A stretch of DNA of 64,000 nucleotides from Myxococcales bacterium 68-20 (lineage in GTDB: Bacteria; Myxococcota_A; Polyangia; Polyangiales; Polyangiaceae). The translations under genes and the position numbers were made by a program. The stretch's first letter is position 1, and each line of letters begins with the position of its first letter. Positions 12,094 through 33,622 of the stretch are shown piece after piece. The notes below the pieces were generated by a model. The model ran no database searches. It was not told the origin of the DNA and saw only the letters and a program-made list of their open reading frames with translations. The stretch spans positions 62,001 to 126,000 of the forward strand of contig MKVQ01000017.1 of NCBI GenBank assembly GCA_001899635.1, written 5' to 3'.

Positions 12094-12098
12094 GGAGA

Positions 12099-12668
12099 TC
12101 AACCCTTCAAGAGACCGAGTCGAGTGAGAGGCATGTCTCTTCGCGTGGCGCGCTCGATCGCGTCGCGGAACTCCGCGCGTGCGAGGCGAAGGCGCGAATA
12201 GGCGGTATTGAGCGGGATGGAGAGCAACGTGGCGATCTCGGGTATGTCGTGCCCGTCGATGTCGTGCATGACGAAGACGACGCGACGGTCCGCCGGGATG
12301 GACTGGAGTGTATGGAGAACGAGCGAGCGCTCTTCTTCGAGCTCGAGGAGCTTGTCAGGACGCTGGCGATGGTCCTCGGGCTCCGGCATCGCGCCCGGGT
12401 CGGTGACCTCGACGCGGCGTTCCGTCCTCTGACGCGATGACAGCGCCGTGAGGTACGCGATCCTGGCGAGCCAGGGGCGAGGACTGCTGACGGTGACGAG
12501 CGACTCCAGCCGCCGGTAAGCGGTGAGGAAGACCTCGTGCGCTGCGTCCTCGACGTCGCTTGCATGCACCCCGAAACGTCGGAGGCATGCACACACGTAG
12601 AGGAAGTTCTCGTGGAAGAGCTTGTGGAAGAGCTCGGTGCGTTCCGTTTCGCTCCTCACGAATGCCAA
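12099..12668 (-). CDS. ECF-type RNA polymerase sigma factor, cassette 2
   Basis: 189 aa counted from TTG at 12668; GTG at 12659 (three residues shorter) is an equally plausible start. Region 2 includes HASDVEDAAHEVFLTAYRRL. Region 4 includes HDIPEIATLLSIPLNTAYSRL, where the usual Gly of the turn (xGT) is replaced by Asn, unlike the three sister factors. It lies 22 bp downstream of the barrel gene, so co-transcription is likely. Sequence identity to the sigma factors of the neighbouring cassettes is low compared with the near-identity of the lipoproteins. Confidence 0.88.
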   Translation of the reverse strand: MAFVRSETERTELFHKLFHENFLYVCACLRRFGVHASDVEDAAHEVFLTAYRRLESLVTVSSPRPWLARIAYLTALSSRQRTERRVEVTDPGAMPEPEDHRQRPDKLLELEEERSLVLHTLQSIPADRRVVFVMHDIDGHDIPEIATLLSIPLNTAYSRLRLARAEFRDAIERATRRDMPLTRLGLLKG

Positions 12669-13808: not shown

Positions 13809-13959
13809 CTACTTCACCGAGGTGATCAGCGCCAGAGTGCCGGGGCCGGGGACCGCCAGGAGCGCGGGCGACGGGCTGACGCCACGTAGACGAAGTCCTG
13901 GCGCGTGAGCGCGTCGAGCCGCTCTCGAATCGCGAGATGCACTTCGGGAAGGCGCGTCA
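13809..13959 (-). pseudogene. Possible frameshifted gene remnant between cassettes 2 and 3
   Basis: In the 225-bp spacer the minus strand reads LPEVHLAIRERLDAL then TRQDFVYVAS in one frame and then LLAVPGPGTLALITSVK with a stop in a second frame. The two halves look like one coding C-terminus broken by a frameshift near 13870. I do not recognise the family. The rest of the spacer (13732-13808) should hold the cassette 2 promoter, but none stands out. A chance coding-like pattern in GC-rich DNA is the alternative. Confidence 0.25.
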
Positions 13960-18528: not shown

Positions 18529-19739
18529 CGCTTGCCTCCGAGGGAGAGGAGGACGCCTTGGCCTCCGACCCACACTTTTCCAGGCTCTGGCACCCACACC
18601 GAGAGGAGCTCCGGTCGACGACGCCCCATCCCGGCCACCTTCACCCGGGACCACGTCGTTCCGTCGTAGTGAAGGACCACGCCTTTGTCGCCAACGGCCC
18701 AGACGTCGGACGACGACGAGCCAGCGACGGCGTAGAGGTGCTCGTCCGTCGGCACCTCCATCACTTGCCAACCGAACGTCGCCCCCACGTTGTGGATGAC
18801 CAACCCGCGCGCGCCGACGGCCCACGCCTCCGTGTCGGAGACGGCCCATACGCCGTTGAGCACCGACCACGTGAGCGGGTTCATCACTTCCACCGTGGGC
18901 GACGCGCCGTCGGCGCCCGTGATTCGAATCGCGGAGCCGGTCTCTCCAACGCCCCACACGACGTTCGGAGACACGCCATCGAGGGCTCTGAGCCACTTGC
19001 ATGGCAGATTGCTGCAGACCGACTTAGGGACACCCGCCGTCGGCGTGAGCGTCGCCCCGTCCGCGCCGATGCGCCAGACCTCGGTGCTCGTTGCCACCCA
19101 CATCATGTTTGACCCAGTCCGGCCCCATGCTGCGGTGACGATGCTGCTCGCGCCCGACGGTGGGGTCAGCTTGCCTCGATTGGCCCAGCCGTCCGGCGAC
19201 GGGGCGTCTTCCCCGGCACCGAGGCCACGCGTGAACACCCGGTCGAGGGTACCGAACGCGAGCTCGCCTGCGTTGGCAAGCCAGATGTACTCGAGCGACT
19301 CATACGTTCCAACATCGACGGTCTTCCACTCCGTACCGTCGAAGCGCGCGGCCATGCCGACCGTCCCGACGACCCACGCGTCCGTCGCCGAGCGAGCTCG
19401 AATCGTCTCGAGGCGCGTGCGCCAGTCGACGCCGGCGGACGGCTCGGCACCGAAGAGGCCACTCGGGCAGAGTGCCCCGGGCTCACACTCGGCCGGGAAG
19501 AACGCGCAATCACCTTCGGCGCACGCATCTCCCGCGTCTGCACCGTCCGCTCCACCGGCATCGGGCGCGGGAACGACGGTCTCCGTGTTCTCGGGGTTGA
19601 GATTGACCTCGGCGTCGATCGCCGCGCACGCGGCGACGAACATGGCGGCCAGGCCGCACGCGAAGCCCGCGCCAGAGACCAACGGGCAACGCCATGCGCT
19701 CGCCCCTTGTCCCAATCGCGCTCGAGTACGAACGCTCAT
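18525..19739 (-). CDS. YCF48/BNR-like beta-propeller lipoprotein, cassette 3
   Basis: 404 aa from ATG at 19739, overlapping the Cys-rich gene stop (ATGA at 19736-19739). The lipobox-like MFVAAC gives Cys38. A short CAEGDCAFFPAEC segment is conserved with cassettes 2 and 4 and could form a small disulfide knot ahead of the propeller. Repeats TVGMAARFDG, VWGVGETGSAI and SSSDVWAVGDKGVVLHYDG are close to cassette 2 residue by residue. The end is WVGGQGVLLSLGGKR. Confidence 0.87.
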   Translation of the reverse strand: MSVRTRARLGQGASAWRCPLVSGAGFACGLAAMFVAACAAIDAEVNLNPENTETVVPAPDAGGADGADAGDACAEGDCAFFPAECEPGALCPSGLFGAEPSAGVDWRTRLETIRARSATDAWVVGTVGMAARFDGTEWKTVDVGTYESLEYIWLANAGELAFGTLDRVFTRGLGAGEDAPSPDGWANRGKLTPPSGASSIVTAAWGRTGSNMMWVATSTEVWRIGADGATLTPTAGVPKSVCSNLPCKWLRALDGVSPNVVWGVGETGSAIRITGADGASPTVEVMNPLTWSVLNGVWAVSDTEAWAVGARGLVIHNVGATFGWQVMEVPTDEHLYAVAGSSSSDVWAVGDKGVVLHYDGTTWSRVKVAGMGRRRPELLSVWVPEPGKVWVGGQGVLLSLGGKR

Positions 19740-20962
19740 CGGGTCACCTCGCCGGCGTCGGCCTGATCACATGGCTCGACCACGCATTTGCCCGCGACGC
19801 AGGCTTGACCCATCGTCAGATCGCAGGTGATGCCGCATCCACCGCAGTTGCGCGGGTCGCTCCTCGTGTCGATTTCGCATCCGTCGGTTCGCGAGCCGTT
19901 GCAGTCCGCCGCGCCATTCCTACAACGAAAGACGCACCTCCCGTAATCGCATATCGGCATCTCGTTGAGGTTGGCGCCTCCGCAGCTCACGCCGCAGGCG
20001 CCGCAGTTGAGAGTGTCGCTGATGACGTCTGCGCAGCGTCCGACTGGGAGGCCGTCCTTCTCACCTGTTTGGCAAAACGTCCGGCCCTCGGCGCACAGGC
20101 ACGACAGCTCGCCAGATGCCTCATTTACTCCGCACTTCTGCCCTGCACCACACTTGTTGCCACAGTACCCGCAGTTGTCGTCCGTTGACGTCGACGCCTC
20201 GCAACCATTCTCGATGTCACCATCGCAGTTGGCGAAGCCCGGCTTACACTTGAGATTACCGCACTGACCCGATCCGCAGCCGTAGTAGGTGTTCAAGTAC
20301 TGCGGAGCGCCCGGCCCTCCGGTCCGATCGCAAGTATGGTTGCAAGCGCCGCAATTGTCGTCGTCGGCGCTCACGTCCGTGCACACCTGGCAATCGACCG
20401 TGCCCGGAGGACACCCACAGCCGACCTTGGTGCGCTTGGCGTCCTGGTAGTGGCACGACTCCCCCACGGCACAGACCACGCCGCATGCACCGCAGTTGAG
20501 CGGGTCGAACAGGCCGCTCTCGCAACCGTTGTCGACGAGGCCGTCACAATCTTTGCGATCACCTGCGGTGGCGCTGCACTCCATCGTGCAGGTGCCCTCG
20601 TTGCACACGAAGCGCTCGCCCCCCGCGCCCTTCGTTGGGCAGGCCATCCCGCACCCTCCGCAGTTTCTCGCCTCGGCGAGGATGTTGGTGTCGCACGGGA
20701 AGCGCGAGTCCGGACACGTCATCCACCCCGGAGGGCACTGGGACGACGGACAGTAGGCGATGAGCCCCGCTTCTGCGTCCGAATCGCTCGCGTCGATTGG
20801 AGCAAGAGGCGAGAACGTTCCTCCCTCGGGCACGCCGGCGGTTCCGATGAGGCGTCCGTCGGAGCATGATGACTGCGCTACGAAGAGCGCGCAGGGAACG
20901 ATTGCGAGCAGCAAGGTTCGCGAGCGCCACGTACGACGCTCGGCTTTTTCCATCCACACCAT
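19736..20962 (-). CDS. Cys-rich repeat lipoprotein, cassette 3
   Basis: 408 aa from ATG at 20962; a second in-frame ATG lies three codons later at 20953. Unlike cassettes 1 and 2 it does not overlap the TPR gene, but starts 36 bp after it. The signal core LLLAIVPCALFVA ends near Cys33. The signature CPSSQCPPGWMTC is followed by CDTNILAEARNCGGCG, NCGACGVVCAVGESC and further clusters. The tail CDLTMGQACVAGKCVVEPC is shared. One segment, ANLNEMPICDYGRC, differs from the cassette 2 counterpart. Confidence 0.87.
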   Translation of the reverse strand: MVWMEKAERRTWRSRTLLLAIVPCALFVAQSSCSDGRLIGTAGVPEGGTFSPLAPIDASDSDAEAGLIAYCPSSQCPPGWMTCPDSRFPCDTNILAEARNCGGCGMACPTKGAGGERFVCNEGTCTMECSATAGDRKDCDGLVDNGCESGLFDPLNCGACGVVCAVGESCHYQDAKRTKVGCGCPPGTVDCQVCTDVSADDDNCGACNHTCDRTGGPGAPQYLNTYYGCGSGQCGNLKCKPGFANCDGDIENGCEASTSTDDNCGYCGNKCGAGQKCGVNEASGELSCLCAEGRTFCQTGEKDGLPVGRCADVISDTLNCGACGVSCGGANLNEMPICDYGRCVFRCRNGAADCNGSRTDGCEIDTRSDPRNCGGCGITCDLTMGQACVAGKCVVEPCDQADAGEVTR

Positions 20963-20998: not shown

Positions 20999-21751
20999 TC
21001 AGAGCTTGGCCGCTCGCCGAACACTCGGAGCAAAAGGACTCTCGGGGTAATTCTCCAGGAACCGAACAGCTCGCCGATTCGCTTCCTCCGTCCGGCCGAG
21101 ACGCGCGAGGCACGCGATGGCGATCGCCTCACGCTCCTCGCCGAGGATGCCTCGCCGAAAGCGGCGATCGCCCTCGGCGGCGAAGGTGATCGCGGCTTCG
21201 GGATCGTGCTCCGCGAGGCGGCGAAGCGCGGCGAGGTGGCGGGTCTCCTCGAGCGGATCCGCAGCCGGCGGAGGTTGGGCGGCGCTCTCGACGTCCTTCG
21301 CACCCAACTGCTTTGCACCGACGGACGGCGTTGCGACGGCCTTGGTGCGTGGAGGCACGGTGGGCGCGATGGGCGCGGGAGGTAGAGACTCCACTGCGAT
21401 ACCCGGCTCCGACGGCGCGGGAGGCGTCTCTGGCGAGACCGGCCTCTCGTGGGCAATGACGGGTGCGGGCGGCGGTGTAGGCGAGCTCTCTTCCGACGAC
21501 GACGAGATCGTGACGACGGCGCCGACGGTCACGATGACGGCGACTCCGCCGAGGGATCGCGCGAGCCAGCGCGGGACTCCATCTCGTGCAGCAGGCGCGG
21601 GGCCCGCTGCAGCGATCGCGTCACGGAGGCTCGCAAGGCCCGCGGCCTCGTCGAATCCAGGCGGGGCCGCGCTCACCTCGTCGTGCAGCGCCTCTCGGCA
21701 CCATTCCGGGATGGCCTGATCGTCACGAAGGCGCGTAGGGTCCGAGCTCAT
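20999..21751 (-). CDS. Single-span membrane protein with TPR-like C-terminus, cassette 3
   Basis: 250 aa from ATG at 21751, joined to the sigma stop by ATGA. The N-terminus (MSSDPTRLRDD) resembles that of cassette 4 (MTIEPTRLVHED), suggesting a common cytoplasmic head in these two copies. The span lies near 66-83 (LGGVAVIVTVGAVVTI). A Pro-rich periplasmic linker of about 90 residues is followed by a helical repeat region with LAEHDPEAAITFAAEGDRRF and FLENYPESPFAPSVRR. The linker length fits crossing of the periplasm or peptidoglycan. Confidence 0.75.
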   Translation of the reverse strand: MSSDPTRLRDDQAIPEWCREALHDEVSAAPPGFDEAAGLASLRDAIAAAGPAPAARDGVPRWLARSLGGVAVIVTVGAVVTISSSSEESSPTPPPAPVIAHERPVSPETPPAPSEPGIAVESLPPAPIAPTVPPRTKAVATPSVGAKQLGAKDVESAAQPPPAADPLEETRHLAALRRLAEHDPEAAITFAAEGDRRFRRGILGEEREAIAIACLARLGRTEEANRRAVRFLENYPESPFAPSVRRAAKL

Positions 21752-22314
21752 TTGCCTTGCTCCGGGCTGTGCAATTCGATGGCGCGTCGAAACTCTTCAC
21801 GCGCCACGCGCAGTCGCGAGAAGACCGTGCCTTTGGGGATCCCAAGGCCGGCCGCGATCGACGCGCACGACTCGCCCTCGATCTCGAAGAGGACGAAGAC
21901 GATCCGCCTCTCCGGATCGAGCGTCGAAAGCGCGCGGAAGACGATCGAACGAGACTCGTCTTCCGCCAGCTTGGTCTCTTGCGGCGCGGGGTATCCTGCT
22001 TCGAGTCCCTCGTCCTCCGCGGCCATCCGCTGAAGCCGGCGACGGGTGACGCGCCGGTAGTCCGACGCGATCCCGAACGCGATGCGCGCGAGCCACGTCA
22101 GCGGTTGCGCCGGTCCCGGCAGGTAGCCGCCCTTGCGATGGGCGACGAGGAAGACCTCCTGCGTGAGATCGTGGAGATCCTGCGCAGGTACGCCGAGGCG
22201 GTAGAGGAGCGCCGAGACGTTTCGCGCGTAACGCCGAAAGAGGAGCTCGGCGTTCATTCCGTCCTGGGGAACGTCCACGTGACACCGTTCAGCTGCGCTG
22301 GCGGAGGCGACCAC
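21748..22314 (-). CDS. ECF-type RNA polymerase sigma factor, cassette 3
   Basis: 188 aa from the GTG at 22314. The ATG at 22257 (MNAELLFRRYARNV), preceded by AGGACGGA, is an attractive shorter start of 169 aa. Region 2 contains PAQDLHDLTQEVFLVAHRK and region 4 contains GIPKGTVFSRLRVAREEF, so both core-binding and -35-binding helices are present. It lies 33 bp after the barrel gene. The segment between regions 2 and 4 includes DYRRVTRRRLQRM, a basic patch not seen in the sister factors. Confidence 0.88.
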   Translation of the reverse strand: MVASASAAERCHVDVPQDGMNAELLFRRYARNVSALLYRLGVPAQDLHDLTQEVFLVAHRKGGYLPGPAQPLTWLARIAFGIASDYRRVTRRRLQRMAAEDEGLEAGYPAPQETKLAEDESRSIVFRALSTLDPERRIVFVLFEIEGESCASIAAGLGIPKGTVFSRLRVAREEFRRAIELHSPEQGK

Positions 22315-22347: not shown

Positions 22348-23403
22348 TCACGGGAGCTCGAAAAAAATGCCAGCCGAGGGCGCGACGCCGAGGACCGGAA
22401 AATCCACGCGGTCGATGGCGCCTCCGATCTCGTAGTCGACGAGAAATACCGGCCGGCGCACGGCGACGAGCGCATCGACGGCCGCGAAGGCGCCGGCCGT
22501 CCACTCCGCAGGACGAGCGCCCCACCGCTTCAGCGGCACACGCCCGTCGATTCGCCCCGCGACCGCCGACCACGGGAACAAGCGCGAGCGGTCGTCGAGG
22601 AGGCCGGTCGTATTCGACGTCACGAGCCCCGTCGCGTAGCCCCCGCATGCGCGGGCCCTCGCGGCAGAGATGTCGATCGCGATGCAAACATCGGCGCGAA
22701 ACGCGAAGAGCTGCGCCTGTGCACGCCCCACCGGCAGCGCGATGTCGACTGGCGCCGCGACGAGGAACGACATTCGCGTCTCGAGATGGCGCGACCATGC
22801 GATGTCGGCGCTCGCGACGCCTCCCAACGTGGGCTTGGGCAGGACGTTCCACGAGAACAGTGGACCCGCCGCCAGGCTCCAGCGGGGGGCCTCCTCGCGG
22901 GCCGGCCTCGGCGGAGCTTGTTCTCGCCTCTTCTCTGCGCGAGGAGGCGGGCTCTCGCGTTCGGGACTCGCCGGGGCCTCCGGGCTCGCGTCGAGCGGAG
23001 CCGAGAGGAAGTTCGCTTCGATCGCCACGGCGATGGCGAGGCTCAGCGTCTGGACGACATCCGGGCACGCGTGCGCGAGATCGCGAAACCACCTCTTGCC
23101 GACGAAGGCATCGCCCAGAAAGAACGAGTACGAGATCGCGTCGCCCTCGTAGCGCACGACGACGCGGATCCGCGCGTCGAGGCGATCGCGCTTCAGCCAT
23201 GCGCTGACGGAGGGCGCGAGGACAGCGTGATCGAGGCACCGATCGCTTTCGACATCGAGTGCCTCGCCGATGTCCCGTTCGGCGACCGGGCTCTCTGCCT
23301 CGGCGAGAGAAGCAACCGTCGCAAAGACCGCAGCGATCGCTGCTCCACACATGCGCGCGCGCGGCTTCGTTCGCGATCTCTGCGCGCGCGGACCGACCTT
23401 CAC
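22348..23403 (-). CDS. Secreted two-Cys N-domain protein with probable outer-membrane C-domain, cassette 3
   Basis: 351 aa from GTG at 23403; ATG at 23352 gives a more compact signal peptide (CGAAIAAVFATVASLAEA). The paired cysteines are in DRCLDHAVLAPSV and HACPDVVQTLSLAIAVAIEA. The linker is short and charged (PPPRAEKRREQAPPRPAREE). The C-terminal half has barrel-like alternation, for example WSLAAGPLFSWNVL, and ends GIFFELP, with a terminal aromatic-rich strand as barrels prefer. Similarity to the other three copies is confined to the N-domain pattern. Confidence 0.73.
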   Translation of the reverse strand: MKVGPRAQRSRTKPRARMCGAAIAAVFATVASLAEAESPVAERDIGEALDVESDRCLDHAVLAPSVSAWLKRDRLDARIRVVVRYEGDAISYSFFLGDAFVGKRWFRDLAHACPDVVQTLSLAIAVAIEANFLSAPLDASPEAPASPERESPPPRAEKRREQAPPRPAREEAPRWSLAAGPLFSWNVLPKPTLGGVASADIAWSRHLETRMSFLVAAPVDIALPVGRAQAQLFAFRADVCIAIDISAARARACGGYATGLVTSNTTGLLDDRSRLFPWSAVAGRIDGRVPLKRWGARPAEWTAGAFAAVDALVAVRRPVFLVDYEIGGAIDRVDFPVLGVAPSAGIFFELP

Positions 23404-23621: not shown

Positions 23622-25382
23622 TCACTGCACCGGAACGAGCGGCGTGGTGACGAGCTTCCGCGTTGCCGTGCCGCCGGGATAGGCGTAGCTCGCAGCGAAG
23701 GCCCAGCCCCAGAGCGTGGCTGTGAACGGCCCCGTGCTCTTCATGCGCTGCAGCCCGGTGCGGCAGGTCTTGTCACCGAACGATTGCCCCGGACCACCCT
23801 CGCGCGAGAGATCTACGCGGACGTACTCGTAGTCGACGCGCGTACCGACGGGCTTCCAGTCGGTGAGGGTACCGGCGCACTCGAGCCACACGTCCTCGAA
23901 CTTGCCGAAGTGCTTGCCGCGGATGACGACGAGCGACGTCTCCTCGTAGGTCGGATCGGCGTAGAAGCTGTACGCGTTCAGCCACTGGCCGGCGGGGACG
24001 ACGTTGACGAAATCCGGGTCGCCCCAACCCGCCATCTTGCCCGAACCGTAATAGCCACCCTCATACCCAGTCATGTACGCAGCGAGGTAGATCGGGTGCT
24101 CGGCGTCCTGCGTCCGAACCACGAACGTGTCGTTGACGCCCGCGGGGAAGGTCACGACCTCGCCGGCGTTCATCTCGGTCGGCGCCCCCACCGGAATCTT
24201 TGGATCGTAGTCGAGACGCGTCCCGTCATGAGCCGCGACGATGCGATAGGGCATCGTCTCGCCCGGCGAAGCGGTGCGCTGACGGTAGCCGACGGCGACG
24301 TACTCCGAACCCCACTGTTCGTGCGACGGGATCTGCTGCCAGAGCAGATCGCATGCGCCGGACGCCGACGGGATGTACGCGCACGTTTGGCCGCCGAAGG
24401 TCGCCGTCGGCTTGCTCGAGGTGAGGATGCTCCCGGTGAGCTCGTCATTCTGAACGAACTGGAGGAACTGCCCCTTGTCGAGGCGGTACGTCGCTGGGAG
24501 GTTCGCGAGCGCTCCCTCGACGCCCTGTCCGCTCTGGATCGGCACCTTCGGAACGATCGTGATCTCCGTGCCGTCCTCGGACGCGACGATCTGCGTGCTC
24601 GGCCTCCCGATGTTGGCCTCCCACGGATTGACGATCACGTGTTCCTTTCCCCACGTGACGACCGGCATGAGGAGGGCCGTCGTCGGGAGATGCCCCGCCG
24701 CTCCGCCGAACGGGTACATCGCGACGAGCGACACCGGCGCGTTCGTGGCCAGGTGGAACGACTTGCCGAACGCGGTTCCGGTGAGCGCCTTCCCTTGGAC
24801 CGCGGGGACGACGCCTTCGGGGCAGCGGACGCTGTTGATCGCGTTCGGGGTGGACGGATCTCGCTCCTCGACGAAGAGCACGACGCTCTCGCCAGGGGGA
24901 ATCGGCCCTGTGTGCGCGAGCAGCGTCGCGTCGCCCGGGGTCGTTCGGAACACTGCCTTCGAGATGTCGAGCGCCTCGCCATCCCGATCGAACGAGAGCT
25001 CCACGGGCTGCGTCGATGTGTTGACGACGAAGGTCGCGTAGCACGAGCTCGCGTACGGCGGGGGGGCCTGGAAGTAGAACTCGCAGCCGTTCGAGCTCCG
25101 GTCTTCCGCGGCAGCGGCGCACGGGTCCTGGCACTTCGCACCGCCGCACGCCGTGGTCGCCGAACAGGTCTCGACGGTCTCGCCAGTGCAGCTGCGGATG
25201 ACGGAGCGCCCATCGAGCGAGCACTGGAGCGCGCATTCTCCGGCGTCCTCCGTCGGCGTTTGCACGAAATTCCTCGGCCTCTCCTCGAAGCCGTCACGAC
25301 CGTCGCTGCAGGCACCGGCCACAGCGAAGAGCGCGAGACCGATGACGGAGCAGATCGCCGGCGTGGCCAAACTCCTACTCAT
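23622..25382 (-). CDS. IgGFc-binding-domain lipoprotein, cassette 4
   Basis: 586 aa from ATG at 25382 (ATGA). The lipobox-like VAGAC gives Cys25, and the early GRDGF segment is shared with cassette 2. It is the most diverged of the three complete copies: the cysteine segment reads CSLDGRSVIRSCTG and CGGAKCQDPC, and the core has SQ replaced by TQIVASEDGTEITIV, then YRLDKGQFLQF, KPTATFGGQTC and CDLLWQQIPSHEQWG. The C-terminus is KLVTTPLVPVQ. All family motifs are intact, so it should fold as the others do. Confidence 0.9.
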   Translation of the reverse strand: MSRSLATPAICSVIGLALFAVAGACSDGRDGFEERPRNFVQTPTEDAGECALQCSLDGRSVIRSCTGETVETCSATTACGGAKCQDPCAAAAEDRSSNGCEFYFQAPPPYASSCYATFVVNTSTQPVELSFDRDGEALDISKAVFRTTPGDATLLAHTGPIPPGESVVLFVEERDPSTPNAINSVRCPEGVVPAVQGKALTGTAFGKSFHLATNAPVSLVAMYPFGGAAGHLPTTALLMPVVTWGKEHVIVNPWEANIGRPSTQIVASEDGTEITIVPKVPIQSGQGVEGALANLPATYRLDKGQFLQFVQNDELTGSILTSSKPTATFGGQTCAYIPSASGACDLLWQQIPSHEQWGSEYVAVGYRQRTASPGETMPYRIVAAHDGTRLDYDPKIPVGAPTEMNAGEVVTFPAGVNDTFVVRTQDAEHPIYLAAYMTGYEGGYYGSGKMAGWGDPDFVNVVPAGQWLNAYSFYADPTYEETSLVVIRGKHFGKFEDVWLECAGTLTDWKPVGTRVDYEYVRVDLSREGGPGQSFGDKTCRTGLQRMKSTGPFTATLWGWAFAASYAYPGGTATRKLVTTPLVPVQ

Positions 25383-26719
25383 GGAAGCACCACCTCTGTC
25401 GGAGCCGACGGCCTGCCCCGGTTCTGTCCGTTGCCGAGCTGACCGTAGTAGTTGCCGCCCCAGCAGTAGACCTTGCCAGTCGTGAGGAGCGCGCATGTCG
25501 TGCTCGTCGTCGTCTTCACCTGCGCGGCGGTCGCCGGCAGCCCGTCGACCTTCACCGCGTCGTACACGAAGTCCTGCGTGCCAGGACGCGCCTGACCGCT
25601 GTCGTTCAGCCCCCAGCAGTAGACGCTTCCGGAGGTCGACACGCCGCACCATCGGTACGGCTGGAGCTCGCCCGAAGACAGCGTGGTCGTGCGCGTCGTG
25701 GCGATCTGGGCGAGCGGCTCCGGCGCGATCACCGGCGCGGGGAGCGCACGGTCGAGCACGGTCCCCTTCTTCGTGTTCACGCGTGCCCCCCAGCAGTAGC
25801 CGACACCGTTCGCCGTCGCGCACCCGTTGTCGTAGGCGAGATCCGTCGTCGTGACCCCTTCGAGCGCGACGAGCCGCGGCTGTGGATCGGGGAAGCTCGG
25901 CGAGACACGTCCGATCCCCGGGTTGGCTCCCCAGGTCACGAGCGAGCCGTCCTCGCGAAGCACGAAGGTCGCGCTCCCGACGTCCATCGCACGAACCGCC
26001 GCCCCGGAGGGCAGCGACAATCGCTGCGGTCCCCTGAACGTCTCGGTGAGCGGTCCGATCTGTCCGTTCGTGTTGTCTCCCCAGCACGAGACGTCGTCAC
26101 CGACGACCGCGCACGCCGTGCGGTAGCCGAGCGCGATCTTGGTGGCGGAAGGGAGATCGAGCGTCACCGGCGTCGTCTCGGTCGTCGTCGTCACGCCAGC
26201 GTCGGACCAACGCAACGGGCCGGTTCCCCAGCACCGCACGCCGCCGCTGCCGTCGATCGCGCACGTGTGGTCGAGCGAGACGACGCCCGAGAGCCCGACG
26301 ACCTTCCCCGCGTTCGCGCTGTCGACGAGGCCTCCGTCCTCGCCACGCCCGAGCTGTCCGGCGCCGTTCGCGCCCCAGCACGAGACGGTGCCGTCGTCGA
26401 GCAGGACGCAGAAGCCTTCGCCGCGGTCGTCCGCGCTCTTGCCGAGCGTCGTCACGAGCGACGTCGCGCAAGGGCGCGACGCACATACGACGGGCAGCGG
26501 CCCCGCGTCGACGACGGGCCCTGCATCGCTCGGGCTCGTCGGCGCGTCGACCGTCGCGTCCGTCGCGCTCGACGCATCGACGCCGGCATCCTCGAAGGGA
26601 CGCTCGTCGGGATCATCACTGCTCGAGCAGCCCGCGGCCGTGGCACACGCCGCGAGCAGGAAAGTCGCGACCATTCGCCCAGGGCGACCTCGATCAAGGA
26701 GTCTTCTTGTGAAGTGCAT
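25379..26719 (-). CDS. RCC1-type beta-propeller lipoprotein, cassette 4
   Basis: 446 aa from ATG at 26719; the much longer open frame to 27208 runs over the previous gene and is not used. The start MHFTRRLLDR is retained. The lipobox-like TAAGC places lipidation at Cys31. Blades include SCWGANGAGQLG, SCWGDNTNGQIG, YCWGLNDSGQAR and YCWGGNYYGQLG, so one blade has lost the terminal Gly. Compared with cassettes 2 and 3 there are short deletions near blade 6 (TTTLSSGELQPY). Confidence 0.9.
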   Translation of the reverse strand: MHFTRRLLDRGRPGRMVATFLLAACATAAGCSSSDDPDERPFEDAGVDASSATDATVDAPTSPSDAGPVVDAGPLPVVCASRPCATSLVTTLGKSADDRGEGFCVLLDDGTVSCWGANGAGQLGRGEDGGLVDSANAGKVVGLSGVVSLDHTCAIDGSGGVRCWGTGPLRWSDAGVTTTTETTPVTLDLPSATKIALGYRTACAVVGDDVSCWGDNTNGQIGPLTETFRGPQRLSLPSGAAVRAMDVGSATFVLREDGSLVTWGANPGIGRVSPSFPDPQPRLVALEGVTTTDLAYDNGCATANGVGYCWGARVNTKKGTVLDRALPAPVIAPEPLAQIATTRTTTLSSGELQPYRWCGVSTSGSVYCWGLNDSGQARPGTQDFVYDAVKVDGLPATAAQVKTTTSTTCALLTTGKVYCWGGNYYGQLGNGQNRGRPSAPTEVVLP

Positions 26720-28040
26720 AGCCGGTTCCGACTGCCCAGAGGTTATCGTTCGAGGTGCCGCGCACCTGGTAGACCTGTTTGTCGAGGCGCACTCCGTCGA
26801 GCGCGACACTGGAGATCGAGAACGTCGCGCCTCCATCAGGCACCGTACTCGGCGGACTGACGCCGAGGCCCTGGGCCCACGCATCGAGCTTGTTCTCGAC
26901 ATCGAGGACGACGCCCCAGCCGCCGAGCCAGACATGCTCCCCGTCGATCCAGACCGACTTGAGCTTTCGGTCGCCACGCCCAACCCCCAGTCCGGGAGTG
27001 ACGATTTGATTGAGGCGGGCCACGCCCGCGCCGGCCATGTCGACGTGGATGAAGGTATTATCAGCCAGGAGGATGACGGCCATCCCCGGACGAGGCGAAT
27101 CGACGCTCGTCGCCCAGGCCGCGCCTTGCCAAATGCTGCTGAAGTGCTGGTAGAGCACCGGAAGGCTCCCCGCCGATAGGCAGCTGTCCATGACTCGCTT
27201 GTAGCCATCCGGCGTTCGACGGATCAGCGCAGTGCATCGGCTTCCGGAGGAGACGAACCAGATCTCGTCAGGACTCGAGCCGGCGGCGCCGAGGAAATAG
27301 AAGGACCGTTGTGGGGTGGTGGTCACCGCTTCGCGGTATTCGGGGACCCACTCCGTCGCGCCGCCGTCCACGCGCGTTCGGCGAAAAATCCTGTTTGCGT
27401 ACCACGCGTAGACGTCTTCGGCGGAGGTCCCCCAGACGCCGATCGAGGGGACGTCCTTCTTCGACAATTGCGAAGCATATTGGGTATCCTTTTCAGGATC
27501 GACGCCGGGGCCATCGTACTCGAGGCGAGTCGACTCCCACGAGAAGGGAGCTGACGAGCTCCCACGCGTGCCGTGATAGATGAGCGAGGGTCCAGTGGAA
27601 TAATAAAGCTCGTTCTCGCTCGGCGCCCAGATCTTCCCCACGTAGTGGCCAGAGCCGTAGGCGTTTTGACTGTCGTCGTCGATGTACGCCCACGACTTCG
27701 TCGACTCCGTCCACTCGAGCACCTTCGTACCGAGGGTGCTGCTCTCGGCGAGCGCGAAGGCTCCCTCCTCGAGCGGCCAGATGTCCCTCAACACCAGGTT
27801 GGTGTCGGGCAGCGCCGTCGCGCACCACCCGACCGCGTTGCACGACGACGGCGGCTGGACGTTCGCGTCCTCGACCGGTGCGCCTGCGTCCGCGGGACGC
27901 TCGGGTTCTGAAACGGTGGACTCGCCCGCGTCGTCACTCGGCGGCGCGGGGCGCGCGTCCTCTTCGGACGACGACGTCGCGCAAGCCACTACCGTCGCGA
28001 GCGCGATCGATCCAGATGCAAACAACAACGCGTGTCTCAT
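26694..28040 (-). CDS. BNR-like beta-propeller lipoprotein, cassette 4
   Basis: 448 aa from ATG at 28040 (ATGA). The lipobox-like TVVAC gives Cys20. It is about 30 residues shorter than its paralogs, mainly through loss in the middle. Conserved pieces are GTSAEDVYAWYANRIFRRT, GTRGSSSAPFSWESTRL and NDNLWAVGTGYALHKKTP. A Cys pair not found in the other copies appears around SRCTALIRR and MDSCLSAGS, perhaps an extra disulfide. Confidence 0.84.
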   Translation of the reverse strand: MRHALLFASGSIALATVVACATSSSEEDARPAPPSDDAGESTVSEPERPADAGAPVEDANVQPPSSCNAVGWCATALPDTNLVLRDIWPLEEGAFALAESSTLGTKVLEWTESTKSWAYIDDDSQNAYGSGHYVGKIWAPSENELYYSTGPSLIYHGTRGSSSAPFSWESTRLEYDGPGVDPEKDTQYASQLSKKDVPSIGVWGTSAEDVYAWYANRIFRRTRVDGGATEWVPEYREAVTTTPQRSFYFLGAAGSSPDEIWFVSSGSRCTALIRRTPDGYKRVMDSCLSAGSLPVLYQHFSSIWQGAAWATSVDSPRPGMAVILLADNTFIHVDMAGAGVARLNQIVTPGLGVGRGDRKLKSVWIDGEHVWLGGWGVVLDVENKLDAWAQGLGVSPPSTVPDGGATFSISSVALDGVRLDKQVYQVRGTSNDNLWAVGTGYALHKKTP

Positions 28041-29224
28041 CGTTTGTCTCCGAGGGCGAGCAGCACCCCTTGGCCACCAATCCAGACTTGACCGGGCCCA
28101 GCCGACCACACCGTGTAGAGGTCCGGTCGTCGCGTTCCGAGCCCGGCTATTTTCACGCGCGACCACGCCGTGCCGTCGTAGTGAAGGACGACGCCCGCGT
28201 CGCCGACGGCCCAGATGTCCGACGACGAGGAGCCCGTCACCGCGTTGAGGTGCTCCGTCGTCGGGACGTTCGTGACGACCTCCCAGGAGGATTGTGCGCC
28301 AGTGTTGTGAAGGATCGTCCCGTCGACGCCGACAGCCCATGCCTCCGTGTCCGAGACCGCCCAGACGCCGTTCAATCGCTTCCACGTCAACGGGTTGGTG
28401 ACTTGGAGCTCCGGCGCATCGCCGTCGGCGCCGAGGATACGGACGGCCGCGCCGTTGTCGCCCACCGCCCAGATCGTTCCGGCGGAGGTGCCATGGAGGC
28501 TCCTCAGCCACCGGCACGGCCTGCTTTGGCAGACGGACGCGGGGAGCCCCGGCCGAGACGTGAACGTCGACCCATTCAACTCGAGGCGCCGAACATCGGT
28601 GTTCGTCGCGAGCCAGAGCAGATTCGACCCCGGCATGGTCCACGTGGCGGTGACAACCGAGCTCGCAGAGTACTCGGCGATCGAGCGGACCGCCCAGCCG
28701 TCCGGCGATATCCCTGCGTCTTCGGAGCCGAGCCCACGTGAGTAGAGCCGGTCAGGCGTTCCGAACGCGACCTCACCCGCGCTGGTGAGCCACAAGAAGC
28801 GCAAGCTCTCGCCCGTGCCGAGATCGGCCTGGTTCCATGACGTGCCATCGAAGTGGGCGGCCATGCCGACCGTACCGACGAGCCACACATCCGCCGGCGA
28901 GCGCCCGCCAATCGCGGTGACGCGCGTCCGCCAGCTTGGCTCCGCGGACGAGTCCACCGAATCGAAGAGGCCATTCAGACAAAGGACCTCGGGGCCGCAC
29001 GCGTCCGGGAAGAACACGCAGTCGTCCGTGGTGCACAGGGCACCACCATCACCTCCGTCGACGACGTCCAGCGCGCCCGCGTCACTCTGCGGGGTGACGG
29101 TCTCCGTGCCATCGGGCTCGAGGACGGCGGCCTCTTCGTCCGACGCGCAGGCCGCGAGGGAGAGGCTCGCCGCCACGAACGACAACCCCACTCCGGCACC
29201 GAGAACAGTAAAGCGCGTGCTCAT
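28037..29224 (-). CDS. YCF48/BNR-like beta-propeller lipoprotein, cassette 4
   Basis: 395 aa from ATG at 29224, which overlaps the stop of the Cys-rich gene (ATGA, 29221-29224). The signal peptide is compact, with LSLAAC giving Cys26. The disulfide-type segment reads CTTDDCVFFPDAC, keeping the four-Cys spacing of the other copies. Repeats TVGMAAHFDG, IWAVGDNGAAV and SSSDIWAVGDAGVVLHYDG are present. The end is WIGGQGVLLALGDKR. Confidence 0.87.
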   Translation of the reverse strand: MSTRFTVLGAGVGLSFVAASLSLAACASDEEAAVLEPDGTETVTPQSDAGALDVVDGGDGGALCTTDDCVFFPDACGPEVLCLNGLFDSVDSSAEPSWRTRVTAIGGRSPADVWLVGTVGMAAHFDGTSWNQADLGTGESLRFLWLTSAGEVAFGTPDRLYSRGLGSEDAGISPDGWAVRSIAEYSASSVVTATWTMPGSNLLWLATNTDVRRLELNGSTFTSRPGLPASVCQSRPCRWLRSLHGTSAGTIWAVGDNGAAVRILGADGDAPELQVTNPLTWKRLNGVWAVSDTEAWAVGVDGTILHNTGAQSSWEVVTNVPTTEHLNAVTGSSSSDIWAVGDAGVVLHYDGTAWSRVKIAGLGTRRPDLYTVWSAGPGQVWIGGQGVLLALGDKR

Positions 29225-30465
29225 CGTGTCAGCTCCCCAGCGTCGGCCTCGTCGCAAGGCGCGACCACACACTTGCCTGCGACGCACGCCTGCCCAGCGA
29301 CGCCATCGCAGACGATCCCGCACCCGCCGCAGTTTCGCGGATCGCTCGTCGTGTCGACCTCGCATCCGTCGGCTTCGTTGCCATTGCAGTCCGCGTAGCC
29401 GTCGAGGCATCGCCTCACGCACGCGCCGAAGTCGCAGACGAAGCGTGATCCAGGCGGGTAGCCGGCTGCCCAGCAGTACGCACCGCACGCACCGCAGTTC
29501 GCCTCGTCGCTGTTGAGGTCGGTGCAGTATTTCGCCTTCGGGTCGCCGGGGACGTCGCAGAGCGTCAAGTCGCCGGCGCACAGGCATTCGGGCGCTCGGG
29601 ACTTATCGTAGTTTTGATAGCAGTGCTGCCCCGACGGACACGCGTTGCCGCAGCCACCGCAATTGTCATCCGACAGGACCGGCGTCTCGCAGCCGTTCTC
29701 GATATCGCCGTCGCAGTTCAGGAAGTCCTTCTTGCATTTGAGATTTCCACAAGTGCTGTTGACGCACCCGTAGGCCATGTTCGTATATTGCGGCGCGCCG
29801 GCCCCCCCGGTCTCATCGCACCGATTCCCGCATGCGCCGCAGTGCTGATCGTTCTCAGAGGTTTCGAGGCAGAGACCGCCGCAATTGAACAACCCCGTCG
29901 GACAGCCACACCCAACGTCACTGGGCAGACCGCTCAGCAGCTTCGCGCCGTCCTGATACGCGCAAGGGCTGTCCGCCGGGCACGCGTTTCCACACGCGCC
30001 GCAATTCAGCCTGTCAGGGACGTTCGCGGTCACCTCGCATCCGTTGTCGGGCAGACCGTCGCAGTCCAGCCTCCCCGCGGCGCACTCCGCGACGCAAGCC
30101 CCCGCGACGCACGAGAAGTTCTCGTACTTGGCTACATTCGGACAGGCCGCGCCGCACGCCCCGCAGTTGAGGGGATCGGCGAGGATGTTGGTATCGCACG
30201 GGAAGCGCGAGTCGGGACACGTCGTCCACCCCGGCGGGCACTGGGACGACGGACAGTAGGCGATGAGCCCCGCTTCGGCATCGACGCCTGCCTCCGGCAC
30301 CGAGGTGAACGACGGCGGATTGGGCAGGTCATCGCCGATGAGAAGGGGCTTGCCCTCCGTCGTGCACGAGACCGCGCACAGCGCTGCCACGGCGCTGACT
30401 ACCGAGATGGCGTAGGCGACGCTCGCGCGGGCGCCACGCCGACGATCGAACTGAGTTTCGTTCAT
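29221..30465 (-). CDS. Cys-rich repeat lipoprotein, cassette 4
   Basis: 414 aa from ATG at 30465; the open frame reaching 31086 overlaps the TPR gene and is rejected. Lipidation is predicted at Cys34 (LCAVSC). The signature CPSSQCPPGWTTC is followed by clusters NCGACGAACP, NCGACGNACP, HCGACGNRC and NCGGCGNACP. A 58-bp gap separates it from the TPR gene and holds a small GC hairpin (30479-30492) plus the palindrome GAGAGCTCTC (30466-30475) touching the start codon. This could tune expression of the lipoprotein half of the operon; cassettes 1 and 2 have no such gap. Confidence 0.87.
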   Translation of the reverse strand: MNETQFDRRRGARASVAYAISVVSAVAALCAVSCTTEGKPLLIGDDLPNPPSFTSVPEAGVDAEAGLIAYCPSSQCPPGWTTCPDSRFPCDTNILADPLNCGACGAACPNVAKYENFSCVAGACVAECAAGRLDCDGLPDNGCEVTANVPDRLNCGACGNACPADSPCAYQDGAKLLSGLPSDVGCGCPTGLFNCGGLCLETSENDQHCGACGNRCDETGGAGAPQYTNMAYGCVNSTCGNLKCKKDFLNCDGDIENGCETPVLSDDNCGGCGNACPSGQHCYQNYDKSRAPECLCAGDLTLCDVPGDPKAKYCTDLNSDEANCGACGAYCWAAGYPPGSRFVCDFGACVRRCLDGYADCNGNEADGCEVDTTSDPRNCGGCGIVCDGVAGQACVAGKCVVAPCDEADAGELTR

Positions 30466-30523: not shown

Positions 30524-31291
30524 TCAGTCCCTGGTACGTTGCGCGAGCGAGCGAACGCGGGCCGCGTAGGCGCTGCTCGGATTGTCCGCGAGGAATCGCT
30601 CGGCAAGAGCAAACGCGCGGGCGCGCTCTCCCGAGTTGGAGAGCGCCTCGATGCGGATGACTTCGATCTCTTCCGCGAAGAGCCCGGAAGGAAAGCGCGT
30701 CTGGTAACGCTCGACGGCGCGCAGCGACGCCGGGATGTCATTCGCCGCCAGGCCGGCGCGCGCCGCCGACAGGAGCCCGAGCTCTTCGTCGAAGGTCGAT
30801 CGCTCCGCGCCGGCGGATGCCCCCCGCGCATTCTCGTGTCGGTCCGCGCTCGCCTTCGAGGTCGGCGGTCGTCCGCGAGGCGCGACGGCTCGGATGGCGC
30901 TCGCCGAAGCGACGGCAAGCACCGGCGGCTCTTCGGCCGACGGGACGACGCAATCCGCCATTGCCGACGGCTCCGCAACCGGCGCGACGACGGGGGCAAC
31001 AGTCGACGCGGGGGACGCGGCCAGCGGCGCCGTCCCTTCGGCGTTGTTCGCGGTGCCGCTGCCGGAGGAGATGCTCGACGCGGCAATGAGGCCGAACATC
31101 GACGCCCCGACGATCGCGGTGCCCGCCCCGAACCACTGCCACCACCGCGGTCGCGACGCCGACGCCATGCGCTTCGCGAGCGACACGGCTTCGTCGACCT
31201 GGGCGGGCGTGGGACCGTCCTCCTCGCTCGCGGCGACGAGGTGCGCGAATCCCGGATCTTCGTGAACGAGGCGCGTGGGTTCGATCGTCAT
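30524..31291 (-). CDS. Single-span membrane protein with TPR-like C-terminus, cassette 4
   Basis: 255 aa from ATG at 31291, ATGA-coupled to the sigma gene. The cytoplasmic head is only about 48 residues (MTIEPTRLVHED start). The span near 50-73 begins with an aromatic belt (RWWQWFGAGTAIVGASMFGLIA). The Ala/Val/Pro-rich periplasmic linker contains one Cys. The C-terminal helices include LSAARAGLAANDIPASLRAV and YQTRFPSGLF, matching the repeat seen in the other copies. Confidence 0.76.
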   Translation of the reverse strand: MTIEPTRLVHEDPGFAHLVAASEEDGPTPAQVDEAVSLAKRMASASRPRWWQWFGAGTAIVGASMFGLIAASSISSGSGTANNAEGTAPLAASPASTVAPVVAPVAEPSAMADCVVPSAEEPPVLAVASASAIRAVAPRGRPPTSKASADRHENARGASAGAERSTFDEELGLLSAARAGLAANDIPASLRAVERYQTRFPSGLFAEEIEVIRIEALSNSGERARAFALAERFLADNPSSAYAARVRSLAQRTRD

Positions 31292-31923
31292 TTGTCTCGG
31301 CCCCCACCCGTACGTGCGCGATGACGCTCGAGCCGTGCACGGAAGTCGTCGCGCGCGCGTCGTAGGCGAGATGCGACCGTCCCGAGGGGAACATCGAGCA
31401 CGTCGGCGATCTCCTGCATCGTCATCTGTTCGAGCTCGTACATGACGAACACCGTGCGCAGGCTCTCTTCGAGCTCCGACAGCAAGCGGTAAAGGAGCTC
31501 ACGCGCCCTCGCTCCGTCGAGGCGCTCCTCGGGCGATGCCGCCATCTCGTCGGACGCGTCGCTCGTCACGGGGTCGAGATGCTCGGTCGGCACCTCGCGC
31601 GCATTCTTCTTCTTGAGGTTGGACGCGATCCGGAGCGCTGCCCCGAAGAGGAACGCACGTTCGTTGCCCGGCTTCACCTCGTCGATCCGCCGGAGCACGA
31701 CGAGGAAGAGGTCCTGCGCGGCGTCGTCGATGACATCCGGCTCGAAGCCGAGTCGCCGAAGAAAGCGCCAGACGTTGGCAAAGTGAGCGCGTACCAGCTC
31801 GGGGAGGAGCTCCGCCCGTTCGTTCACGTGTTCGTCCGAGCGCGCCGTCGACAAGGCATGCCCGTGGACCGTGGATCCGGCCACGCTGGCAGCAGCCGCA
31901 GAAGCGGTCGACGGGGTGAGCAC
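31288..31923 (-). CDS. ECF-type RNA polymerase sigma factor, cassette 4
   Basis: 211 aa from GTG at 31923, the longest of the four because of an Ala/Ser-rich N-terminal extension of about 35 residues that may be untranslated. Region 2 contains EPDVIDDAAQDLFLVVLRRI and region 4 contains MTMQEIADVLDVPLGTVASRL. A basic stretch NLKKKNAREV lies between them. Overlap with the TPR gene couples the two. The 85-bp gap before it carries an 8-bp tandem repeat. Confidence 0.88.
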   Translation of the reverse strand: MLTPSTASAAAASVAGSTVHGHALSTARSDEHVNERAELLPELVRAHFANVWRFLRRLGFEPDVIDDAAQDLFLVVLRRIDEVKPGNERAFLFGAALRIASNLKKKNAREVPTEHLDPVTSDASDEMAASPEERLDGARARELLYRLLSELEESLRTVFVMYELEQMTMQEIADVLDVPLGTVASRLRRARDDFRARLERHRARTGGGRDK

Positions 31924-31964
31924 GCGGCGTAGTAGTGCCGGCTCGACGTTCTGATCACGAAATC

Positions 31965-31996
31965 GTCCTCGGGTCCTCGGGTCCTCGGGTCCTCGA
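31965..31996. repeat. 8-bp direct tandem repeat, about 3.9 copies
   Basis: The unit GTCCTCGG (CCGAGGAC on the coding strand) occurs three times exactly and a fourth time with its last base changed. It sits between the cassette 4 barrel stop (32009) and the sigma start (31923). Copy-number slippage here would change the barrel-sigma spacing without touching a reading frame. Confidence 0.85.
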
Positions 31997-32008
31997 ATCC
32001 CCCTGGCA

Positions 32009-33127
32009 TCACAGTCTAAGGCCTATGCCGATACCTCCAAGCAGACCGACCGCGGGCACGCTCGCGGCAACCGTCCCGCTGGAGAGGACGAACGGACGCC
32101 GGACGAGCGGCGCCGTCACGAGAACGGTAGAGCTCAAGAAGACGCTCTTCGAAAGGTGCACCGCGGCCCACACCGACCCGCCGAGATCGAGCCAGGTGAT
32201 CGACGCTTGGCGGGCACGGGCAAACCCCTCGGCCGAGCTGCGAAGGATCCCGAGGTTCATCTCCGCGCACGGCGCGACCTCGACGACCCGCGCAATCGTG
32301 AGCTCGTGCGGGCATGCGCGGAAATTTCCCGCCATCCATAGAAAGTCGACGCTCCCCCCGCTCAGCGCGCGCTCCTTCGGGAGGCTCTGGCGCAGCCCGA
32401 GCCCAAAGCTCGGCTTCCATCCGCGCAGCCAGCGAGGCTCTTCCGCGGGTGGAAGGATGAGCTTCATCGATGCTCCGATTCCGGGAAGCGCGCCCCGGAC
32501 GACCGCGGACGTCGACTCGAGGCGGACGTCGAACGCGACCGTCGGCCCCGAGGAGCGCGGGTGACCCGCGGTGAGGCGCTCTCCACCGTCCCGCCGGCGC
32601 TCGGCGCGCGGCTCCTCGCGTGGTCGGTCGGCGGGAGCTTCGTTCGGAGGCCCGTCGGCGCTCGGCTCCTCGGGCTCTTTGTCGACACCCGCCTTCGTGT
32701 CGTTCGGGCCGTCGGCGCGGAGATCGATCGCCACCCCGACCATGATCGCCATGGCGCGGGCCACTCCCGCGCAGGTCGGGCCGACGAGCCGGCGCTCGGC
32801 GAGGGGCCCCGCCTCGTTCGCGATGACCAGAGTGCCGAGCCATTCGTCTCCGTGCACGGACAGGCGAACGCGGAACGTTCGCTCCGCCTGGGTCCCCTCG
32901 GGAACGGCCGACCAGCGACTCGTGTACGCGCGCACCGTCGCGAAGAAGTCGCCTTGCGAAGGGCATGTGCTCGTCGCGCTCGTCTCCGCTTCGTACAGAA
33001 GGGTGATCGGCTCCACCTCCGGCGCCTCCGCTCGCGCGGGCAGCGGGACGATCAGAGCGGCCGCCGCCACGACGCGCCCGAACATCACCGAGAGCCTCGG
33101 CTCGCTTCGCCTGCTCACGTCCGCCAT
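32009..33127 (-). CDS. Secreted two-Cys N-domain protein with probable outer-membrane C-domain, cassette 4
   Basis: 372 aa from ATG at 33127; ATG at 33085 (MFGRVVAAAALIVPLPARA) is an alternative with a tidier signal peptide. N-domain cysteines are in STCPSQGDFFATV and GPTCAGVARAMAIM. A long acidic and Arg-rich linker (PEEPSADGPPNEAPADRP) is followed by a strand-rich half with barrel-like alternation, ending LLGGIGIGLRL. It is the first gene of the right-most operon and marks the array border; 120 bp separate it from the response-regulator stop. Confidence 0.74.
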   Translation of the reverse strand: MADVSRRSEPRLSVMFGRVVAAAALIVPLPARAEAPEVEPITLLYEAETSATSTCPSQGDFFATVRAYTSRWSAVPEGTQAERTFRVRLSVHGDEWLGTLVIANEAGPLAERRLVGPTCAGVARAMAIMVGVAIDLRADGPNDTKAGVDKEPEEPSADGPPNEAPADRPREEPRAERRRDGGERLTAGHPRSSGPTVAFDVRLESTSAVVRGALPGIGASMKLILPPAEEPRWLRGWKPSFGLGLRQSLPKERALSGGSVDFLWMAGNFRACPHELTIARVVEVAPCAEMNLGILRSSAEGFARARQASITWLDLGGSVWAAVHLSKSVFLSSTVLVTAPLVRRPFVLSSGTVAASVPAVGLLGGIGIGLRL

Positions 33128-33616: not shown

Positions 33617-33622
33617 GCTGCC

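Follow-up and report, generated by a model that had tools for sequence, protein, structure and literature searches.

The window and its triplets

The window analysed here is a stretch of 64,000 nucleotides (C17:62001-126000) from the genome of Myxococcales bacterium 68-20, an assembly of 11.9 Mb in 52 contigs with a completeness of 98.4% and a contamination of 4.2%. Its left 33 kb consist of a tandem run of four similar units of about 10 kb (cassettes A to D), each headed by a triplet of genes for a barrel protein of the outer-membrane type, an extracytoplasmic function (ECF) sigma factor and a membrane protein with a transmembrane (TM) helix and a tetratricopeptide repeat (TPR) domain, called the TM-TPR protein. 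The gene order within a unit is barrel, ECF sigma, TM-TPR, STIG1-like, PROP1/PROP2, RCC1 and IgGFc_binding, the genes behind the triplet being termed the payload. With a probability of about three in four, every triplet forms a signalling line of its own that links the envelope to transcription, built from a CnrY-like anti-sigma factor and a new TPR sensor. Synteny, co-inheritance, coevolution of the TM-TPR head with sigma and fold models form the computational basis of this proposal.

The three genes which a first-pass annotation of the sequence had placed in cassette A were found there, all on the minus strand. The coupling of the membrane protein gene to the sigma gene by ATGA or GTGA, reported for three cassettes, is real, but the number is not: there are four triplets, with the junctions ATGA, ATGA, TTGA and GTGA in cassettes A to D. 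The sigma factor of cassette A matches Sigma70_r4_2 (E=3e-15) and Sigma70_r2 (E=2e-5) of Pfam, both above the cut-off, possesses only the sigma2 and sigma4 domains that define an ECF sigma factor and aligns with RpoE, SigW and CnrH. An ECF42-like fusion of sigma and TPR was ruled out, since the TPR sits on a separate membrane protein.

The TM-TPR protein

The AlphaFold2 (AF2) model of the cassette A protein, made without sigma, comprises two head helices at residues 13-24 and 29-45 (block mean pLDDT 65-87), a TM helix at 58-72, disorder up to residue 158 and a TPR domain at 159-254 (pLDDT mostly 97-98). A TM-like segment exists in 294 of 302 TM-TPR proteins and starts at a median residue of 65 (n=294). 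The 15 residues before it carry a mean charge of +1.48 and the 15 after it one of -0.16, with the higher value before in 214 proteins and after in 33; the N-terminus is therefore placed inside. The earlier description as a single-span protein with a long periplasmic domain thus holds, and the TPR domain is real.

Among 52 members searched, the matches in Pfam and NCBIfam were TPR, YfiO and YbgF-like models as well as a few stray weak ones; neither database gave a FecR or other anti-sigma model. The zinc anti-sigma motif HxxxCxxC occurs in none of the 302 proteins. The TPR domain is most like the N-terminal part of a known repeat array, namely the first TPRs in BamD (profile E=1.7e-6; Foldseek E=7e-3, root-mean-square deviation 1.6 over 84) and also YbgF, while the BamD/YfiO family cut-offs are not reached (PF13525, 19.7 bits vs 25; TIGR03302, 13.4 vs 81.4). 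It shares the TPR fold of BamD and YbgF (CpoB) but differs from both in being tethered to an inner-membrane, anti-sigma-like head.

In the disordered Pro/Ala-rich periplasmic linker a motif like VSVDALPS or VSVDDLPS recurs (e.g. in L033). A strict VSVDALPS-like pattern was counted in 85 of 302 linkers vs 8 in shuffled linkers, and by eye no clear copy is seen in the TM-TPR protein of the window. The motif is possibly a docking or cleavage site.

Coevolution of head and sigma

Mean-field direct coupling analysis was applied to 302 non-redundant sigma/TM-TPR pairs, 116 from the own genome and 186 from relatives (effective number of sequences, Meff, 271). The strongest inter-protein couplings, given as sigma-head with window sigma numbering (alignment number minus 12), are D66-31, W52-P27, A49-32, D66-34, F159-19, F194-19 and R79-36. 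Their residue preferences are mostly sensible (Asp-Arg, Glu-Arg, Asp-Lys, Trp-Pro and hydrophobic pairs), although the top pair also favours Asp-Asp. Ten couplings are at least 1.2, compared with at most one in any of 40 random and 37 within-cluster shuffles. The top coupling is 1.81 vs largest shuffle values of 1.23 (random) and 1.72 (within-cluster), and it is shared by both halves of an earlier 255-pair run, where it ranks 6 in the own genome and 1 in the relatives, of 8592.

The couplings are also ordered. Among the top 20 couplings, 11 link sigma2 with helix 2, four sigma4 with helix 1, two sigma2 with helix 1 and none sigma4 with helix 2, the remainder lying outside the bins (Fisher p=0.006; for the top 10, p=0.08). 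The polarity score of these 20 is 13 vs shuffle maxima of 5 (random) and 8 (within-cluster). Furthermore, when a model trained on the relatives was used to match the 116 own pairs, the head gave an area under the curve (AUC) of 0.90 with 31 cognates at rank 1, the TPR domain 0.93 with 29 and the linker 0.67 with 14. Cognate matching shows pair specificity, not its residence in the head.

The pattern is that of the class II anti-sigma factor CnrY, whose first helix sits on sigma4 and whose second sits on sigma2 (PMC7406223); PMC4598750 describes the same embrace. The anatomy of class II, a short (<50 aa) two-helix cytoplasmic domain before the TM helix, is found in the AF2 model, and its contacts of helix 1 with sigma4 and helix 2 with sigma2 are seen by coevolution only. 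The TM-TPR head is likewise of class II size, the CnrY head being about 45 residues long. In the CnrH-CnrY(-CnrX) system of Cupriavidus metallidurans CnrX is a separate sensor, whereas here a TPR domain is fused to the regulator and the neighbour is an OmpA/OmpX-type barrel. In class I anti-sigma factors helix 1 contacts sigma4 and helix 4 contacts sigma2, and the domain has a mean of 101 +/- 33 aa (PMC7406223). On sigma2 and sigma4 the surfaces that couple to the head overlap those used by class I anti-sigma factors of the RseA/ChrR type, but the head, with about 45-50 aa, two helices instead of four and none of the Hx3Cx2C motifs often seen in class I, does not fit that class. Sigma D66, L144 and L148 align in the PDB alignment to RpoE 47, 131 and 135, where native RpoE numbering is taken as the chain number minus 3. 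Table 2 of PMC7406223 lists these RpoE positions among the contacts shared by four class I complexes.

Anatomy and coupling polarity are of the CnrY type, and therefore the "unrecognised anti-sigma class with a TPR sensor" of the first-pass annotation becomes an unrecognised family (by Pfam and NCBIfam) with a known binding mode; its TPR domain stands, its status as a new class does not. The head couples to sigma in anti-sigma polarity and would inhibit sigma rather than only bind it.

The barrel protein

The barrel protein of cassette A has, in its AF2 model (pTM 0.50), a signal-like N-terminus, a periplasmic N-domain (residues 41-139), a Pro-rich linker and a C-terminal 8-strand barrel (residues 200-371). 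The predicted fold resembles OmpA (9fzc_A, E=5e-6, TMt 0.71) and OmpX (1qj9, TMt 0.69) in Foldseek, so that the assignment to the OmpA/OmpX-type 8-strand membrane barrels is one by predicted fold only. From OmpA, OmpX and Ail the protein differs by the additional N-terminal periplasmic domain with two conserved Cys and by the lack of a sequence family match. The Cys pairs C55/C119 in the periplasmic domain and C272/C287 in the barrel are invariant in 13 barrel sequences, which suggests two putative disulfides.

No credible Pfam family, TonB-dependent receptors included, was found for 13 barrel proteins. Together with the results for the TM-TPR proteins this bears out the reported absence of FecR, TonB-receptor and zinc anti-sigma motifs. 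The triplet is like FecI-FecR-FecA in that an outer-membrane barrel, a single-span inner-membrane regulator and an ECF sigma factor are encoded together. However, it has neither a FecR domain nor a TonB-dependent receptor, but a small 8-strand barrel and a TPR sensor, and because the barrel is not a TonB receptor the triplet is not a FecIRA system.

Copy number and co-inheritance

At least 150 sigma matches were scored in the own genome. The IgGFc protein gave 141 matches, of which 132 were kept after removal of 9 weak or fragmentary ones. A same-strand ECF gene lies 4-10 kb upstream of 117 of these 132; random placement gave a mean of 7.8 and a maximum of 17 (200 trials). For further analysis 119 ECF-anchored units were used, which were selected by the presence of the IgGFc gene (one of two overlapping C9 regions was dropped, reducing 120 pairs to 119 loci); 12 unpaired IgGFc regions, including L150, lie outside this analysis. 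Among the matches listed, 31 of the 150 scored ECF genes have no paired downstream IgGFc gene.

A credible TM-TPR gene is present in 116 of the 119 units, and a frame of at least 240 aa stands in the place of the barrel in 107, a count based on position and length and not on a homology test. The payload is represented by STIG in 118, PROP1 in 118, RCC1 in 115 and PROP2 in 67 units. The order STIG-PROP1-(PROP2)-RCC1-IGG is kept in 105, and 9 further units deviate only by an IgGFc match at the start, presumably from the neighbouring unit. With a median length of 9.5 kb the units total 1.13 Mb or 9.5% of the genome. The gene following sigma begins at -4 in 96 of 119 units, and this start was chosen for 95 of 116 own pairs, 128 of 139 relative pairs and 43 of 47 further relative pairs; as the start picker gave the -4 position a small bonus, these counts are upper estimates. 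The own-genome sigma copies have a median identity of about 33%.

Protein distance matrices were compared for 89 cassettes with all parts (L148 and L149 were also left out). The distances of the barrel domains, sigma, head and TPR domain correlate mutually at 0.39-0.70, with sigma-TPR the highest (0.70), and those of four payload proteins at 0.87-0.94. Between the two blocks the correlations are only 0.03-0.11, though STIG directly follows the TM-TPR gene. For four triplet pairs tested none of 499 permutations reached the observed correlation, and TPR-STIG (0.11) and sigma-IGG (0.09) were each reached by 1 of 499, so that a faint link remains. In a separate mirror-tree comparison the signal of the TM region is weak (0.13). 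High correlation within the blocks and near-zero correlation across them therefore mean that the triplet travels as a unit and recombines against the payload, or that the payload is exchanged between units. The payload of the roughly 119 units (window 1-33000; L031-L149), composed of STIG1-like, PROP1, often PROP2, RCC1 and IgGFc_binding proteins, evolves as a block of its own. Of the "cell-surface signalling module" first proposed, the module is supported, being co-inherited in the genome and conserved in the family, and signalling is its probable function.

Distribution in other genomes

The whole cassette also exists in the Labilithrix metagenome-assembled genomes ACE_MYX5 and ACE_MYX7 (L151-L160), the sole named genomes in which it was found by a scan that may leave out own-genome records. 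STIG protein matches occur in 12 of 58 genomes (own included, 1e-15), and more than 10 copies only in the own genome (G000), G003 and G006. Outside the genus the lipoprotein cassette hardly occurs.

In contrast, the TM-TPR protein is present in 99 of 108 genomes at the family level, in 152 of 183 at the order level and in 91 of 282 of a phylum sample (own included each time). A deeper search at 1e-12 of 30 other genomes gave 3-17, 9-28 and 7-33 copies per genome in three sets. An ECF gene lies directly upstream of the TM-TPR frame in 143 of 148 and 65 of 74 fetched loci; these two sets contain duplicates as well as one locus of the own genome, and 186 non-redundant pairs from relatives were retained. 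Of the 14 loci lacking an upstream ECF gene, eight do have one next to them by coordinates once a long frame is represented by its second domain hit. Upstream of the sigma/TM-TPR pairs a barrel-family frame exists in 71 of 77 cases, and in 40 of 46 outside the genus, where a payload homologue within 1.5 kb of the triplet exists in only 2 of 125 loci. Therefore the triplet is regarded as the widespread unit and the lipoproteins as its genus-level client. The RCC1-like homologues within 1.5 kb of the triplet outside the genus (L238, L265) may represent an intermediate stage of payload association, or chance.

Proposed mechanism and alternative explanations

In the proposed mechanism the TM-TPR protein would be an inner-membrane anti-sigma factor whose two-helix head of about 45 residues clamps the co-translated ECF sigma. 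With its helix 1 placed on sigma4 and its helix 2 on regions 2.1/2.2 of sigma2, the head would prevent sigma from binding RNA polymerase, in the way CnrY acts on CnrH. Class II size, polarity and the position of D66, L144 and L148 on RpoE contacts argue for such a clamp, which would shield the polymerase-binding surfaces. The long disordered linker would carry the TPR domain through the periplasm, where it may monitor the state of the barrel encoded in the same triplet, or of that protein's periplasmic domain. BamD handles barrel precursors; with a BamD-like TPR domain the co-encoded barrel would be the natural input. A barrel signal, either a ligand or the assembly state, would loosen or destroy the anti-sigma factor, and the freed sigma would transcribe its own operon including the downstream lipoproteins. 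Inhibition, signal direction, TPR-barrel contact and regulon are the parts of this scheme that we infer.

Several results weigh against it. Only the top coupling exceeds the within-cluster shuffle maximum of 1.72, the threshold of 1.2 was picked after the couplings had been seen, and the helix bins were fixed after the 255-pair run, whose pairs are contained in the 302. Meff 271 is low for 227 columns. Co-inheritance inflates all inter-protein couplings. With 255 pairs, sigma and the C-terminal TPR domain, for which no contact is expected, have 3 couplings above the shuffle maximum vs 6 for the head, and 2 head couplings exceeded within-cluster shuffles. On a 224-pair subset a single sigma-head coupling exceeded 10 shuffles. 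Many couplings differ between the own and relative halves of the 255 pairs (W52-P27 has rank 186 and 2, respectively; the top-50 overlap is 3). In the own-genome half the polarity is less marked (p=0.085 for the top 50), and for the top 50 of the 302 pairs it has p=0.065, with a within-cluster shuffle reaching the observed score of 13. In cognate matching the TPR domain (AUC 0.93) does as well as the head (0.90). The head profile finds no CnrY chain and no anti-sigma factor in the PDB at E<=10, and therefore a likeness in mode only, not membership in class II, is claimed. On the input side, the couplings of the TPR domain to the barrel protein do not rise above controls in 224 pairs: 2 of 9900 exceed 13 shuffles for the barrel N-domain and 3 of 14310 exceed 7 for the C-domain, vs 3 of 19690 (5 shuffles) for sigma and the barrel N-domain and 1 of 5280 (27 shuffles) for head and barrel N-domain. 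Nor does a TPR-barrel contact stand out in the partial correlations of the 89 cassettes, which are 0.42 for sigma-TPR, 0.26 for sigma-barrel N-domain and 0.20 for TPR-barrel N-domain. On the output side, no common ECF promoter pattern was found in the three intervals searched; the consensus G[AG]AAC-N15-20-CGT/GTC shows no excess over shuffles in the TPR-STIG gap (4 vs 4.3), upstream of sigma (9 vs 7.7) or on the barrel side (15 vs 16.8).

Coevolution shows a contact and not its sign. The head might thus bind sigma as an activator or pro-sigma factor, like the FecR N-terminus for FecI, and deliver or stabilise it after a signal; ECF activity depends strictly on the 59 residues at the N-terminus of FecR (PMC7406223). 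As the coupled sigma2 and sigma4 surfaces overlap those bound by inhibitory domains, and no FecR-type domain was found among the 52 TM-TPR members, this is unlikely. Even less probable is that the TM-TPR protein is a mere co-transcribed BamD/YbgF-like assembly factor for the barrel, its correlation with sigma stemming from operon co-inheritance. The likeness of the TPR domain to BamD would fit, as would the fact that the sigma-TPR correlation is the highest despite no expected contact. However, position alone fails to explain the near-absent correlation with the adjoining STIG, and the 10 strong head-sigma couplings with ordered polarity would be left unexplained.

The units could also be mainly the amplification product of a gene family, selfish or neutral, that has duplicated and recombined and of which few copies are functional. 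There are 119 of them in one genome, seven adjacent unit pairs show somewhat higher identity, and L106, L122 and L133, which were excluded from the protein sets, look broken or short. Most copies, though, retain their frames, the -4 overlaps, the position of the TM segment and the order of the genes at a median sigma identity of about 33%, which therefore needs selection, and the head-sigma pairing is maintained. This explanation is improbable as well, and the CnrY-like signalling line is preferred.

Significance

In this soil myxobacterium, more than 100 triplets beside their own surface lipoprotein genes suggest a mix-and-match system on a very large scale, by which the cell surface is sensed and remodelled. 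It is conceivable, though stated here only tentatively, that they are more than 100 private, mutually insulated circuits in which the receptor/regulator units are reassorted relative to an equal number of diversified operons for surface lipoproteins, a combinatorial repertoire for sensing and display that may serve neighbour or prey recognition. If so, such a repertoire occupies roughly one tenth of the genome. Most surprising is the amplification of the unit to over 100 mosaic copies. In the Sus-type polysaccharide utilization loci of Bacteroidetes many sigma/anti-sigma units each head an operon for outer-surface lipoproteins, the protein families all being other ones. Among the best-ranked literature titles and abstract openings no description of the module or of IgGFc proteins in myxobacteria was found; the sigma group may exist in the 2021 ECF re-classification. 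With over 100 paralogous circuits in a single cell the question of crosstalk arises directly, and about 300 natural cognate pairs of sigma and putative anti-sigma factor with a median identity of about 34% are a data set for specificity. The couplings predict residues whose exchange would probe head-sigma binding.

Gene content of the four cassettes

The features of the window are compiled in Table 1. The five payload proteins were called lipoproteins by eye from their N-termini, a hydrophobic stretch followed by Cys. With the chosen starts, three of four payload junctions of cassette A are 4-base overlaps, and therefore the unit looks like one operon.

Table 1 Genes and protein regions of cassettes A to D (positions in the window)
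Feature	Position	Strand	Remarks
Barrel protein, A	32009..33127	-	AF2 model, Foldseek; without Pfam match
ECF sigma, A	31288..31923	-	GTG start, 31884 possible later start; Pfam and PDB matches
TM-TPR protein (proposed anti-sigma), A	30524..31291	-	ATGA overlap with sigma (31288-31291)
Cytoplasmic head of TM-TPR, A (residues 1-50)	31142..31291	-	helices 13-24, 29-45; AF2, coevolution with sigma
TM helix of TM-TPR, A (residues 58-72)	31076..31120	-	AF2, TM prediction
Periplasmic TPR domain of TM-TPR, A (residues 159-254)	30530..30817	-	BamD/YbgF-like; profile, AF2, Foldseek
Cys-rich STIG1-like, A	29221..30465	-	Stig1 PF04885; MXAN_6577-like below cut-off; lipoprotein-like N-terminus by eye
PROP1, A	28037..29224	-	weakly propeller-like, PSII_BNR below cut-off; lipoprotein-like N-terminus by eye
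PROP2, A	26694..28040	-	without family match; lipoprotein-like N-terminus by eye
RCC1-repeat protein, A	25379..26719	-	Pfam; lipoprotein-like N-terminus by eye
IgGFc_binding (PF17517) protein, A	23622..25382	-	Pfam; lipoprotein-like N-terminus by eye
Barrel protein, B	22348..23352	-	
ECF sigma, B	21748..22278	-	
TM-TPR protein, B	20999..21751	-	ATGA junction with sigma (21748-21751)
Payload, B	13957..20962	-	STIG 19736-20962, PROP1 18525-19739, PROP2 17083-18528, RCC1 15738-17108, IGG 13957-15741
Barrel protein, C	12691..13731	-	
ECF sigma, C	12099..12668	-	
TM-TPR protein, C	11281..12102	-	TTGA junction (12099-12102); ATG alternative at 12093
Payload, C	4297..11284	-	STIG 10052-11284, PROP1 8847-10055, PROP2 7411-8850, RCC1 6057-7436, IGG 4297-6060
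Barrel protein, D	2576..3697	-	
ECF sigma, D	1884..2465	-	
TM-TPR protein, D	1081..1887	-	GTGA junction (1884-1887); payload continues past the left edge of the window

At 33248-35002 on the minus strand, adjoining cassette A on its upstream side, genes for a putative receiver-domain protein and a histidine-kinase-like protein were noted by eye.

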